From contig CAJWCU010000001.1 in NCBI GenBank assembly GCA_913030825.1, positions 62,001 through 126,000 on the forward strand: a stretch of 64,000 nucleotides of DNA, written 5' to 3'. Source of the stretch: an uncultured Rhodospirillaceae bacterium (GTDB taxonomy: Bacteria; Pseudomonadota; Alphaproteobacteria; Rhodospirillales; Casp-alpha2). Positions 57,727 to 64,000 of the stretch are shown here, piece by piece (the stretch's first letter is position 1; the number at the start of each line of letters is the position of its first letter). The notes beneath the pieces were generated by a model, which saw only the letters and a program-made list of their open reading frames with translations, searched no databases and was not told the DNA's origin. The position numbers were made by a program, and so were the translations under genes.

Positions 57727-60700
57727 CTATTTCTTGGCCCGGGATTTGGCAGCCGGTTTGGCCGCCGGTTTCGATGCCCTTTTGGCGGGCGCCTTGGCGG
57801 GTGCGGCGGCGGCTTTGGCCGGAGCCTTAGCAGGCGCCTTCGCGGGTGCCTTGGCCCGGCTGCGTCGGGCCGGCGCGGCGACCGTAAGCGCCTCGTCCAG
57901 GAAGGCGTCCAGTTCCGTCTTGTGCTTGCTGGCGCTGCCCGTGGCGGGCGAGGCGGCGGCGACGCGACCGGCATAGGACGGTTTCATCTGCTTGAGCTTC
58001 AACTCTTCCATCACCGCCATCATGGGCTCCAGGATAAAGCTCCAGGCGCCCATGTTCTTCGGCTCTTCCTGGCACCACATGAACTCGGCGTTTTTGAACC
58101 GCGAGAGTTCCTCGACCAGGGCGCTGTGCGGGAAGGGATAGAGCTGTTCGACGCGCAGCAGGTAGACGTCGTTGATGCCGCGCTTGGCGCGTTCCTCGAA
58201 CAGGTCGAAGTAGACCTTACCGGTGCAGAGCACGACGCGCTTGATCTTGTCGTCGGGGGCGAGGCCGCCCTTGACCAGCTGCGCGTCGTCCCACAGCACG
58301 CGATGGAACGACGTGTCCGGGCCCAGTTCGTCCAGCCGCGAGACACAAAGCTTGTGGCGTAGCAGCGATTTCGGCGTCATCAGGATCAGCGGTTTGCGGA
58401 AATTGCGCTTCAGCTGACGGCGCAGGACGTGGAAGTAGTTGGCCGGCGTCGTGCAGTTGCAGACCTGCCAGTTGTCGTCGGCGGAATTCTGCAGATAGCG
58501 TTCCAGGCGGGCCGAGGAATGCTCCGGACCCTGGCCTTCGTAGCCGTGCGGCAGAAGCATCACCAGGCCGCACATGCGCAGCCACTTCTGTTCGCCCGAG
58601 GAAATGAACTGGTCGATGATGACCTGGGCACCATTGGCGAAGTCGCCGAACTGGGCTTCCCAGAGAACCAGGGTCTGTGGTTCGGCCAGGGCATAGCCGT
58701 ATTCGAAGCCGAGCACGCCGAATTCGGACAGCGGCGAGTTCAGAACCTCGAACGGCGCCTGACCGAAGCGGATGTTTTGCAGCGGCGTGTAGCGCTCTTC
58801 CGTTTCCTGATCGATTAGCACGGAATGGCGCTGCGAGAAGGTGCCGCGTTCCGAATCCTCGCCCGACAGGCGCACGGGATGGCCTTCCACGGCCAGGGTG
58901 CCGAAGGCCAAAGCCTCCGCCGTCGCCCAATCGATGCCTTCGCCGGTTTGGAACATCTTGGCTTTGGCATCCAACTGGCGGGCGATCTTGGAATGCGGGG
59001 TGAAGTTTTCCGGCACCTTGGTCAGGGCGCCGCCGACTTCCTTGAGGAATTCTAAGCTGCAGGCCGTCTCGCCGCGCCGGGCGTCGCCCGTGGCGACGGC
59101 CATGCCCGACCAGACACCGTCCATCCAGTCGGCCTTGTTGGGCTTGTAGCCGGTCGATGCTTCGAAGGCTTCGTCCATCGTCTTGATGAAGGACTGCATC
59201 TGCTCTTCGGCTTCCTTCTCGTCCATCACGCCTTCGCGGATCAGCTTTTGGGCGTAGATGTTGAGGGTCGTCGGATGGACCTGGATGGTCTTGTACATCC
59301 GGGGCTGCGTGAACATCGGCTCGTCGCCTTCGTTATGGCCGTGGCGGCGATAACAGATCATGTCGATGACCACGTCTTTCTTGAACCGCTGGCGGTATTC
59401 CGTGGCGATGCGCGCGCAATGGACGACGGCTTCGACGTCGTCCGCGTTGACGTGGAAAATCGGGGCGGAGACGATCTTCGCCGCGTCCGAGCAATAGGGC
59501 GTCGCCCGGTGCTGCTTCGGGTTGGTGGTGAAGCCGATCTGGTTGTTGATGATGATATGGATCGTGCCGCCGGTCTGGTAGCCGATCAGGTTCGACAGGT
59601 CCAAGGTCTCCTGAATGATGCCCTGTCCCATGAATGCCGCATCGCCGTGCAGCAGGATGGTCATCACCTTTTCCATATCGGAATCGTTTTTCTGGCGCTG
59701 CTTGGCAGCCGTCTTGCCGAGGCAGACCGTATTGACGCATTCCAGGTGCGACGGGTTGGCCGTCAACGACAGGTGCACGGACTTGCCGTCGAACACGCGG
59801 TCGGCCGAGGCGCCCAGATGGTATTTCACGTCGCCGGAACCGCCGACGTCCTCGGGCTTCGATGCCCCGCCTTGGAATTCGTTGAGGATCGCCTGGAACG
59901 GCTTGCCCATGACATTGGCCAGCACGTTGAGACGCCCGCGGTGGGCCATGCCGAGGACGATTTCCTCTATCCCCAGCTGGCTGCCGCGTTTGAAGATCTG
60001 CTCCATCGCCGGGACCAGGCTTTCGCCGCCGTCCAGGCCGAAGCGCTTGGTGCCGGTGAATTTCTTGTCCAGATAACGCTCGAATCCTTCGGTTTCAATC
60101 AGTCGGTTGAGGATCGCGCGCTTGCCTTCGTTGGTGAAGGACGTCTGGTTGCGGATGCGCTCAATGCGTTCCTGCAGCCAGGATTTTTCTTCCGGACCCT
60201 GGATATGCATGAACTCGATCCCGATCGATCCGGAATAGGTTTCCTTCAGGATCTGCATGATGGTCCGCAGGGTCGCGGTTTCCAGTCCAAGGACGTAGTT
60301 GATGAAGATTTCCCGGTCCCAGTCCTTTTCCGTGAAGCCGTAGGACGCCGGGTCCAGTTCCGAATGGGGCGGCGGCTCGGTCAGGCCGAGCGGGTCCAGG
60401 TTGGCGTGCAGGTGGCCGCGCACGCGGTAGGCGCGGATCAGCATCAGGGCACGCAGGCTGTCGAGCGTCGCCTCGCGCACCTTGGCCGTGGACATGCGCT
60501 CGGTCGGCTGCGGGGCGGTGGCGCGGTCGTCGCTGCGGCGGTTGTGCCCGGCCGTCAGATGATCGGCCAGCGGCACGACGTCGCCGTGGCCGAGGATGGT
60601 CTCCGTGCGCGGCGCCCAACTGGCGCCGTCCTGCTCGCGGGTGAACCCGCGGGCGTCGTCCTCCAGGCCCTTGAAGAATTCCTGCCAGCGCAGGTCCACC

Positions 60701-60798
60701 GACCCCGGGTCGTCCATGTAGCGTTCATAAAGCTCCGCCACATAGACCGTGTTACCGGAATAGAGGAATTGAGTGGGGTCGAGATCGATTTCCGTCAT
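57727..60798 (-). CDS. sucA: 2-oxoglutarate dehydrogenase E1 with basic Ala/Lys/Pro tail
   Basis: This thiamine diphosphate enzyme decarboxylates 2-oxoglutarate and passes the succinyl group to SucB. The 1023-residue protein has the usual N-terminus (FLYSGNTVYVAELYERYMDD), the HRGRLNVLANVMGKP segment, GDAAFMGQGI and HNEGDEPMFTQP, all standard. The family normally ends soon after a conserved A-S-P-A-T-G segment (here SPATGSASKHKTELDAFLDE). Here about 50 residues follow, of which the last 47 (977-1023) hold 11 Lys and 5 Arg with no Asp or Glu, in repeats of K-A-P-A. Such a histone-like tail is not part of the catalytic core. Confidence 0.95.
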   Translation of the reverse strand: MTEIDLDPTQFLYSGNTVYVAELYERYMDDPGSVDLRWQEFFKGLEDDARGFTREQDGASWAPRTETILGHGDVVPLADHLTAGHNRRSDDRATAPQPTERMSTAKVREATLDSLRALMLIRAYRVRGHLHANLDPLGLTEPPPHSELDPASYGFTEKDWDREIFINYVLGLETATLRTIMQILKETYSGSIGIEFMHIQGPEEKSWLQERIERIRNQTSFTNEGKRAILNRLIETEGFERYLDKKFTGTKRFGLDGGESLVPAMEQIFKRGSQLGIEEIVLGMAHRGRLNVLANVMGKPFQAILNEFQGGASKPEDVGGSGDVKYHLGASADRVFDGKSVHLSLTANPSHLECVNTVCLGKTAAKQRQKNDSDMEKVMTILLHGDAAFMGQGIIQETLDLSNLIGYQTGGTIHIIINNQIGFTTNPKQHRATPYCSDAAKIVSAPIFHVNADDVEAVVHCARIATEYRQRFKKDVVIDMICYRRHGHNEGDEPMFTQPRMYKTIQVHPTTLNIYAQKLIREGVMDEKEAEEQMQSFIKTMDEAFEASTGYKPNKADWMDGVWSGMAVATGDARRGETACSLEFLKEVGGALTKVPENFTPHSKIARQLDAKAKMFQTGEGIDWATAEALAFGTLAVEGHPVRLSGEDSERGTFSQRHSVLIDQETEERYTPLQNIRFGQAPFEVLNSPLSEFGVLGFEYGYALAEPQTLVLWEAQFGDFANGAQVIIDQFISSGEQKWLRMCGLVMLLPHGYEGQGPEHSSARLERYLQNSADDNWQVCNCTTPANYFHVLRRQLKRNFRKPLILMTPKSLLRHKLCVSRLDELGPDTSFHRVLWDDAQLVKGGLAPDDKIKRVVLCTGKVYFDLFEERAKRGINDVYLLRVEQLYPFPHSALVEELSRFKNAEFMWCQEEPKNMGAWSFILEPMMAVMEELKLKQMKPSYAGRVAAASPATGSASKHKTELDAFLDEALTVAAPARRSRAKAPAKAPAKAPAKAAAAPAKAPAKRASKPAAKPAAKSRAKK

Positions 60799-60873
60799 GC
60801 CGCAAAAGGCGCACGGCCCGGCGCGCCCTCCCTGTTTTTTTGGGTGCTACGCCGGGACGATCCCTGGCGCAGG

Positions 60874-62977: not shown

Positions 62978-63013
62978 AAAAAAAACCGGCCCGCGCCCGG
63001 GGTGGGCGCGGGC
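62978..63013 (-). terminator. Strong intrinsic terminator between mdh and sucC
   Basis: On the minus strand GCCCGCGCCC (63013-63004) and GGGCGCGGGC (62998-62989) form a 10-bp all-GC stem with a 5-base loop, followed by CCGG and eight T residues (62985-62978). It lies 14 bases after the mdh stop and about 30 bases before the sucC start, so it separates mdh from the sucC-sucD-sucA-sucB-lpdA block or sets their ratio. Confidence 0.85.
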
Positions 63014-63026
63014 GGTCACTGACTAC

Positions 63027-64000
63027 TTACTTGCTTGCCGCCGGTTTGGCTGCCGGTTTGGCCGCCGGCGCCTTGCGGGCCGGCGCCTTGCGTGCCGGGG
63101 CTTTCTTGGCGGCCGACTTCTTGGCCGGGGCTTTTTTCGCGGGCGCCTTCTTGGCCGGTGCCGGCTTGCCGTCGGCTTCCTTCATCAGGCGCTGCGTCAC
63201 GTCGACCAGGCCTTTAACGGCGGCGACGGACTTGCGGAACATCGCCCGTTCGGACGCGTCGAGCTGAATTTCGACGATCTTCTCGACGCCCTTGGCGCCG
63301 ATCACCACCGGCACGCCGACGTACATGCCTTTGACGCCGTATTCACCGTTCAGGTAGGCGGCGCAGGGCAGAACGCGTTTCTTGTCTTTCAGATAGGCGT
63401 CGGCCATCTGGATGGCGGAAGACGCCGGCGCGTAGAAGGCGGAGCCGGTCTTCAGCAGCTTGACGATCTCGCCGCCGCCCATGCGGGTGCGCTCGACGAT
63501 GGCGTCGATCTTGGCCTGGGTCGACCATTTCATCTTGATCAGGTCGGGCACCGGAATGCCGGCGACCGTGGAATAACGGATCGACGGGACCATGGTGTCG
63601 CCGTGCCCGCCCAGAACGAAGGCCGTGACGTCTTCGACCGAGACCTTGAACTCTTCGGCCAGGAAATAGCGGAAGCGTGCGCTGTCGAGCACGCCGGCCA
63701 TGCCGACGACCTTTCGGTGCGGCAGGCCCGAGGCATCACGCAGGACCTGGACCATGGCGTCGAGCGGGTTGGTGATGCAGATCACGAAGGCGTTCGGGGC
63801 ATATTTCTTGATGCCTTCGCCGACCGACTTCATGACGTTGGTGTTGATGCCGATCAGGTCGTCGCGGGTCATGCCCGGCTTGCGGGCGACGCCGGCGGTG
63901 ACGATGCAGACATCGGCGCCGCGGATGGCGCTGTAGGACTTGGCGCCCTTCATGTTGGAATCGAAGCCTTCGACGGGGCTGGATTCAGCGATGTCCAGAG
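63027..64000 (-). CDS. mdh: Malate dehydrogenase with basic Ala/Lys/Pro tail (5' end outside window)
   Basis: This NAD-dependent enzyme oxidises malate to oxaloacetate. The N-terminal nucleotide-binding part lies beyond the window; the visible part begins [15 protein letters not shown] and continues to the Met at 63953 and beyond. The substrate-binding [10 protein letters not shown], the catalytic [10 protein letters not shown] and the LDH-type fold of alphaproteobacterial Mdh are present. After the normal end near [10 protein letters not shown] a tail of 42 residues follows, with 13 Lys and 2 Arg and no acidic residue, built from A-K-K-A-P and A-R-K-A-P repeats. It resembles the sucA tail in composition. 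Confidence 0.94.

Follow-up and report, generated by a model that had tools for sequence, protein, structure and literature searches.

Histone H1-like basic C-terminal tails on SucA and malate dehydrogenase in an alphaproteobacterial family

Basic tails in described systems and at this locus

Histone H1-like tails are a feature of nucleoid and granule proteins. Hc2, a bacterial histone H1-like protein whose composition resembles that of the Mdh tail described here, is a stand-alone nucleoid protein, unlike the enzyme-borne tail of Mdh. Among enzymes, mycobacterial topoisomerase I has a lysine-rich C-terminal tail, and a basic tail is also present in the TopA of the genome studied here; TopA, however, is a DNA-acting enzyme, and its tail in this genome includes acidic residues. 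In the order to which this genome belongs, the E1 alpha subunit of pyruvate dehydrogenase, a sister complex, carries a basic leader rich in Lys, Ala, Pro and Ser (30 loci, read by eye; weak in genomes G037 and G039), but this leader is N-terminal and occurs both inside and outside the family considered below. AlgP and PhaF of Pseudomonas share with SucA and Mdh a disordered C-terminal tail rich in Lys, Ala and Pro, with KPAA units, attached to an unrelated N-terminal domain (PMC9239181, as excerpted). According to the same excerpt, KPAA peptides of AlgP bind DNA and the protein is located on polyphosphate granules; its repeat region is, however, longer (154 residues) and follows a helical domain, and neither AlgP nor PhaF, a PHA-granule protein, is a TCA cycle enzyme (PMC9239181). 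In Bacillus subtilis, MDH clusters ICD in droplets and has been presented as an organizer of TCA enzymes, but the abstract of that study mentions no basic tail (PMC11189929). Tails on SucA or Mdh were not found in titles and abstract openings of the open-licence literature, among the matches listed.

Here, the window (the whole 64,000-nucleotide stretch analyzed) contains sucA and mdh, with sucC and sucD, both tail-less, between them (Table 1). The mdh gene is truncated by the window end; in the contig beyond the window it extends to about position 64130 in window coordinates and encodes about 367 residues.

Table 1. Positions of the two tailed enzymes, their tails and the neighbouring genes in the window
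Feature	Position	Strand	Remarks
lpd, E3	54581..55993	-	tail in 0/10 scorable named loci
sucB, E2 of 2-oxoglutarate dehydrogenase	56055..57674	-	two lipoyl domains in this genus; tail in 0/11 scorable named loci
sucA, 2-oxoglutarate dehydrogenase E1	57727..60798	-	1023 aa; four Pfam domains above cut-off, the last ending at residue 971
SucA C-terminal basic tail	57730..57879	-	50 aa, 11 K, 5 R, 0 D/E; KAPA/KPAA units; predicted disordered
sucD, succinyl-CoA synthetase alpha	60874..61749	-	tail in 0/32 scorable family members; internal control
sucC, succinyl-CoA synthetase beta	61749..62945	-	tail in 0/31 scorable family members; internal control
mdh, LDH-like malate dehydrogenase	63027..64000	-	5' end about 130 bases past window edge; identified by Pfam domains and match to solved MDHs
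Mdh C-terminal basic tail	63030..63161	-	44 aa, 13 K, 2 R, 0 D/E; AKKAP/KPAA units; predicted disordered

SucA is identified as 2-oxoglutarate dehydrogenase E1 by its N-terminal, E1_dh, Transket_pyr and OxoGdeHyase_C domains, and the tail starts after the last of these, beyond complete catalytic domains; in a structure model of modest quality (mean pLDDT 68), used solely for this purpose, the tail has a pLDDT below 50 and is predicted to be disordered. The domains and disorder of Mdh were computed on the L015 protein, which is 99% identical to the window's Mdh. This protein has Ldh_1_N and Ldh_1_C and is full length even without the tail, as expected of an LDH-like malate dehydrogenase; the three closest solved MDHs, of 320-326 residues, match it up to residues 310-315, and the tail again has a pLDDT below 50, predicting disorder. 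An earlier note on this DNA, made from the letters and translations, had described the catalytic domains as looking complete without the tails, and Pfam, the solved MDHs and the predicted disorder bear this out. Its counts were also correct: the final 47 residues of SucA hold 16 basic (11 K and 5 R) and no acidic residues, the final 42 of Mdh hold 15 (13 K and 2 R) and none, and the basic stretches are in fact slightly longer, at 50 and 44 residues. The proposed likeness to histone H1-like and AlgP-like tails likewise holds. Both proteins have the disordered KPAA tail of the AlgP/PhaF type, with catalytic domains in place of the phasin or AlgP N-terminal domain. Against Pfam HC2 (PF07382) the Mdh tail scored 24.0 bits, or 29.2 bits with the following DNA read through; this is below the curated cut-off of 40, though it is the genome's best HC2 match. 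SucA was absent from the HC2 matches in both profile searches (protein, and DNA read through).

Tails elsewhere in the genome

We filtered 1,943 distinct ORFs of at least 100 residues, from about 11% of the genome, for a final 42 residues with at least 12 basic and no acidic residues and at least as many Lys as Arg. SucA, Mdh and one 108-residue ORF without KAP composition passed; when the limits were relaxed, GlnD and an ORF lying at a stretch edge joined them. The sample was non-random, three stretches having been chosen for tail-pattern matches and several others covering matches, and its bias, if any, is toward tails. The SucA and Mdh tails are not a product of chance. A search of the same genome, as the earlier note had advised, returned at least nine further KAP-tailed proteins, including TopA, S1, bL21 and bL19, as well as a Na+/H+ exchanger and PntA, neither of which has an evident need for nucleic acid. 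Of the KAP-tailed proteins besides SucA and Mdh, PhaC, GlnD and PdhA were traced into relatives. The PhaC tail is unique to the window's genome (1/30 loci) and exemplifies how an unkept tail looks, whereas GlnD, though patchy, has basic ends in 13 of the 22 family members read; retained tails are thus not limited to SucA and Mdh. The window's genome did not show a genome-wide excess of the KAP codon pattern, with 38 hits and 37 in the reversed control in one scan and 46 and 36 in another, but several relatives do have one. A protein search with the Mdh tail as query, an insensitive approach, failed to recover SucA. The suggestion that sucA and mdh had exchanged the repeat fared poorly: their longest shared DNA word, of 17 bases, was reached in 34 of 500 synonymous-codon shuffles.

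Distribution of the tails and selection on their composition

Alphaproteobacterial homologues were surveyed at three levels. The family sample comprised 37 genomes from 14 genera; tails were scored from a point extrapolated from the BLAST alignment, with limits that we set (10 residues, net charge +5), SucA of G005 lying at the limit. A SucA tail is present in 33/33 scorable family genomes and an Mdh tail in 26/29, the remaining three Mdh finishing in short basic stretches. Lengths range from 12 to 67 residues for SucA and from 9 to 134 for Mdh, and the shortest SucA tails, of 12 residues, speak against a tethering role. The order survey covered 24 genomes outside the family, leaving out G047 (no match), G048 (a fragment) and G056 (a partial match with the C-terminus missing). 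In the class survey, translations ran through stop codons, so that match ends are not tail ends, and tails were read in the best 30 of 230 matching genomes. The SucA tail proved almost restricted to the family, and Mdh tails are patchy across order and class. A frameshift or assembly artefact, named in the earlier note as a possible refutation, is rejected, since in-frame tails recur in separate genomes and their GC3 in the window's genome is 0.71 for SucA and 0.80 for Mdh, against 0.85 for the cores.

On the tree, the SucA tail requires three state changes and the Mdh tail seven, and an association between the two tails was not found in independent pairs; their co-occurrence reflects shared ancestry and is no replicated association. 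The argument that neighbouring genes sharing a tail must share a task is accordingly weak, the more so because similar tails occur on other proteins of the genome and sucC and sucD, lying between the two genes, have none.

Pooled family tails consist of 30-35% Lys, 3-8% Arg and about 1% Asp plus Glu, with a Lys to Arg ratio of about 3.5 in SucA and 11 in Mdh. This composition is maintained family-wide, while length and residue order drift. The pN/pS ratio was below 0.25 in 15/17 tail comparisons, the two exceptions (0.61 and 2.35, the values resting on few sites) being SucA tails; it exceeded that of the core in 13/17, the core values taking in in-frame codons upstream of the start. Between close tails, 38 of 49 residue differences preserve charge and only two involve an acidic residue. 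The tails are genuine and are maintained by selection in the family, and a survey of close relatives, the other route to refutation, left them standing. They are best explained as intrinsically disordered polycations under selection for composition, not sequence.

Possible roles of the tails

The tails probably fasten both enzymes to anionic partners in the cell. The best explanation, which we consider a little short of probable, is that they form a fuzzy polycationic tether of SucA and Mdh to polyanions. Mdh of the LDH-like kind is a tetramer, and many E1o dimers sit on each multi-subunit E2 core, so that each Mdh or OGDH assembly would display many tails and could bind polyanions by avidity, even where a single tail contributes no more than +5 to +7. 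RNA or nucleoid DNA would be the likeliest partners, followed by acidic enzyme surfaces; the contact would be electrostatic and fuzzy, with no sequence motif, and attachment to RNA or DNA would concentrate or position the two enzymes. In favour of such a tether are the composition maintained across the family, the tail-less neighbours, the KAP tails of TopA, S1, bL21 and bL19, and the DNA-binding KPAA peptides of AlgP (PMC9239181, as excerpted). Outside the family, tailed Mdh cores are net +1 to +7 (n=6), compared with -18 to +6 in 13 untailed Mdh, consistent with selection favouring a net positive charge of the whole protein. Counting against it are the tails of the Na+/H+ exchanger and PntA, the retained basic ends of GlnD, the two SucA tail comparisons with higher pN/pS and the tail ratios that mostly exceed those of the cores. 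In a fuller version, which we consider rather unlikely as a whole, both assemblies would be polycation-bristled particles anchored to nucleic acid or within a condensate, H1-like tails would spatially organize part of the TCA cycle, and the Mdh tail would have been acquired or lost repeatedly within the order, the state changes not distinguishing gains from losses.

An alternative of limited probability is that the tails act as metabolon glue and bind acidic partner enzymes rather than nucleic acid, for example with the acidic lipoyl domains of the E2 in its own complex as the target of the SucA tail, and with the acidic OGDH complex or another TCA enzyme as that of the Mdh tail. The lipoyl domains of SucB, read in 14 family loci, have a net charge of -7 to -10, but their acidity is no greater in genomes with tails than in those without (p=0.70). 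SucA cores are acidic as well, and more so in the family (median -25 against -16), so the SucA tail may instead work inside its own complex; they are complementary in charge to the near-neutral to basic, tail-bearing Mdh cores of the family (median +3). The basic leader of pyruvate dehydrogenase E1 alpha and the MDH-ICD droplets of B. subtilis, as given in the abstract (PMC11189929), point the same way. Against this, SucC, SucD, SucB and Lpd have neither a basic tail nor an acidic counter-tail, their last 30 residues carrying a net charge of -3 to +2. A coupling of the SucA tail to the two-lipoyl form of SucB was rejected, as other genera of the family with one lipoyl motif still have a tailed SucA. 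Charge compensation within each enzyme was also rejected, tail and core charge showing no significant correlation in the family, and the charges of the SucA and Mdh tails are uncoupled from each other (rho -0.14, n=28).

Somewhat less probable still is that the tails are weakly selected by-products, KAP repeats arising easily on surface-exposed C-termini in these genomes and being tolerated, or serving solubility only. The other KAP-tailed proteins of the genome, with the single PhaC locus and the patchy GlnD, agree with this, as do the seven state changes of the Mdh tail and the highly variable tail lengths; the presence of the SucA tail in every scorable family member, the low pN/pS, the near absence of Asp and Glu and the tail-less state of four neighbours do not. 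We regard it as improbable that the tails would be an electrostatic guide holding oxaloacetate, 2-oxoglutarate or CoA nearby, or a sink whose lysines accept succinyl groups from succinyl-CoA. Dicarboxylate anions are substrates of both enzymes, channelling by electrostatics has been discussed for MDH and citrate synthase, and Lys predominates over Arg in the tails, but such a predominance is also usual in H1-like tails. The polyphosphate target proposed earlier is very improbable as a tether to granules of the kind on which KPAA-repeat AlgP is located (PMC9239181, as excerpted): the window's genome has a PPK1 (PF02503) match, but 14/37 family genomes have none, and 13 of these, seven of them at least 90% complete, have a tailed SucA, making polyphosphate unlikely as the sole ligand.

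A tail selected family-wide on two core metabolic enzymes, together with repeated turnover of the Mdh tail, offers a natural comparative system, in which tailed and tail-less orthologues let one ask whether bacteria place TCA enzymes electrostatically.

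Basic tails beyond the folded cores of SucA and Mdh

The C-terminal 50 residues of SucA, the E1 component of 2-oxoglutarate dehydrogenase, include 11 Lys and 5 Arg but no Asp or Glu, and the C-terminal 44 residues of Mdh, an LDH-like malate dehydrogenase, include 13 Lys and 2 Arg, also with no acidic residue; a recount over the final 47 (SucA) and 42 (Mdh) residues reproduced the figures of the earlier note exactly. The mdh gene extends about 130 bases beyond the window (full length, about 367 aa), and Mdh from locus L015 was used as a stand-in (SucA and Mdh are 98% and 99% identical, respectively, to those of the window). 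In SucA (1023 aa) the Pfam domains stop at residue 971, and in L015 Mdh (368 aa) the Ldh domains reach no further than residue 306; the chains of the three closest malate dehydrogenases of solved structure have 320-326 aa. In AlphaFold2 models, the final helix of L015 Mdh spans residues 292-319, with pLDDT below 50 at 322-359 and 361-368, and that of SucA spans 956-971, with pLDDT below 50 at 976-1023 (a model of modest quality).

Coordinates of sucA and of other genes discussed in the text
Feature	Location	Strand
sucA	window 57727-60798	minus
sucB	window 56055-57674	minus
PhaC (PHA synthase) with KAP tail	L316:1441-3021	minus
GlnD	L122:1258-4452	plus
Trigger factor	L109:1-1590	plus
Na+/H+ exchanger	L121:1366-3015	minus
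PdhA (pyruvate dehydrogenase E1 alpha)	L227-L256

Distribution and history of the tails

SucA was searched for in the window's own genome and 60 relatives (37 family genomes from 14 genera and 24 genomes from other families of the order), with a match in 59 of the 61. The sucA-mdh stretch was fetched from 56 genomes besides the window's own and the C-termini were read, a tail being scored when at least 10 residues with a net charge of +5 or more lay past a fixed point. This comparison of C-termini, along the lines proposed in the earlier note, showed the tails to be family-wide in SucA (33 of 33 scorable genomes; three further sequences were cut or partial and one genome had no match) and nearly so in Mdh (26 of 29; in seven others mdh lay outside the stretch and one was not fetched), the three remaining Mdh proteins having ends of 9-15 residues and net +3 to +4. 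Outside the family, in the same order, SucA is tailed in 2 of 21 genomes (G042, with a Lys/Ala/Pro-rich or KAP tail, and G058, at the scoring limit) and Mdh in 6 of 20 scorable ones. By eye, an IPQPFRR-like element with PF lies near the SucA C-terminus in 17 of 21 cases outside the family (L205-L226) and is absent from the family.

Among 80 named loci, 14 encode a SucA with 68% or greater identity to that of the window; they belong to metagenome-assembled genomes whose titles read Rhodospirillales, Rhodospirillaceae, Alphaproteobacteria or Proteobacteria. Their SucA is basic at its end in every case (14/14), and the 13 that hold mdh encode a basic Mdh tail (13/13). The Thalassospira loci of this set have neither; elsewhere in it, Mdh of L050 and L060 is basic at the end. 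Across the class, a similar rule found a basic Mdh extension in 13 of 29 genomes besides the window's own, a figure biased by its origin in the best 30 of 230 Mdh matches. No basic tail was found in the scorable family controls SucC (0/31), SucD (0/32), SucB (0/11) and Lpd (0/10), the last two counts being drawn from the 14 named loci. SucB has two lipoyl domains in the window's genus, and one lipoyl motif in those loci of other family genera in which SucB is complete.

A tree built by a quick method from the cores of SucA and Mdh (57 rows) separates the family from all other rows by a single branch (support 90). The SucA tail requires a change of state, by gain or loss, three times (family, G042, G058) and the Mdh tail seven times, up to three of these being short-tailed family members. 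The tails do occur together in the family, as had been asked, but show no association across independent pairs (six pairs, a weak test). Thus, the sharing of both tails in the family goes back to one event in the history of SucA, set against Mdh tails that come and go. Exchange of the repeat between the two genes, also suggested earlier, was not borne out: their longest common DNA word, 17 bases, was reached by 34 of 500 synonymous shuffles.

KAP tails elsewhere in the genome

At least 12 basic and no acidic residues, with Lys no fewer than Arg, were found in the last 42 residues of 3 of 1,943 distinct ORFs of at least 100 aa: SucA, Mdh and a 108-aa ORF without KAP composition. The sample amounted to 443,903 bases, or about 11% of the genome, with 8 kb common to the window and L002 counted twice; it was hand-picked, with three stretches chosen for pattern hits and several more covering some of these, and is therefore biased towards tails. 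A search of other proteins of the genome, as the earlier note had proposed, found KAP tails on at least nine: GlnD, PntA, trigger factor, TopA, S1, bL21, bL19, a Na+/H+ exchanger and PhaC. In several of these tails, acidic residues are interspersed. PhaC and GlnD were followed into relatives. The PhaC tail occurs in 1 of 30 loci, in the window's genome only; GlnD has a basic end, taken as net +5 or more past that scoring point, in 14 of 30 loci and in 13 of 22 within the family, its end being a long KAP stretch in the window's genus, patchy elsewhere and negative in others. Thus, this genome produces KAP tails now and then, and in the comparison of four C-terminal tails, retention was most consistent for SucA and Mdh.

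The GlnD stretch is about 110 aa long and is followed by a C-terminal EAAE, which is found again in relatives. Trigger factor combines a His/Asp-rich insert with a KAP tail of mixed charge, and the exchanger has a long basic C-terminal tail rich in K/A/P/S. PdhA, read by eye in 30 loci, has a basic K/A/P/S-rich N-terminal leader both inside and outside the family.

A literature search (open-licence papers, titles and abstract openings) found no such tails on SucA or Mdh. H1-like tails as such are already known; keeping them throughout a family on two TCA enzymes is a new variation on that kind.

Composition and possible partners of the tails

Within the family, tail length varies from 12 to 67 residues in SucA and from 9 to 134 in Mdh. 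Pooled SucA tails are 30% Lys, 8% Arg, 26% Ala and 12% Pro, with less than 1% Asp plus Glu; the values for Mdh are 35%, 3%, 35%, 11% and 1.3%. In 17 comparisons between close relatives, some of them with genomes in common, tail pN/pS is under 0.25 in 15; both higher values come from SucA, 0.61 for G005/G006 (over 16 codons) and 2.35 for G023/G034 (with a single synonymous difference). The tail value lies above that of the core in 13 of the 17. Among 49 tail residue differences in seven separate pairs, charge is preserved in 38 and an acidic residue is involved in two. Since composition is retained while length and sequence drift, the sequences point to tails that act by fuzzy electrostatics and not through a motif.

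Among the possible readings, putative tethering to polyanions is placed first. Second is binding of the tails to acidic TCA partners: SucA cores are acidic, more strongly so in the family (p-values being optimistic, as the rows are related), and Mdh cores range from near-neutral to basic where the lineage is tailed. Third, the tails may be a weakly selected by-product. Polyphosphate as sole ligand is unlikely, because a search confined to PPK1 (profile PF02503) drew a blank in 14 of the family's 37 genomes, and a SucA tail was scored in 13 of these 14; genomes without a match include G008, G011, G016, G020, G023, G027 and G036.

Peptides of the KPAA tail of AlgP are described as binding DNA, and AlgP as located on polyphosphate granules, with its C-terminus required for granule spacing (PMC9239181). 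On this evidence, polyanion tethering ranks first: the tails would tether SucA and Mdh to polyanions, with RNA or DNA the likelier ligand than polyphosphate.
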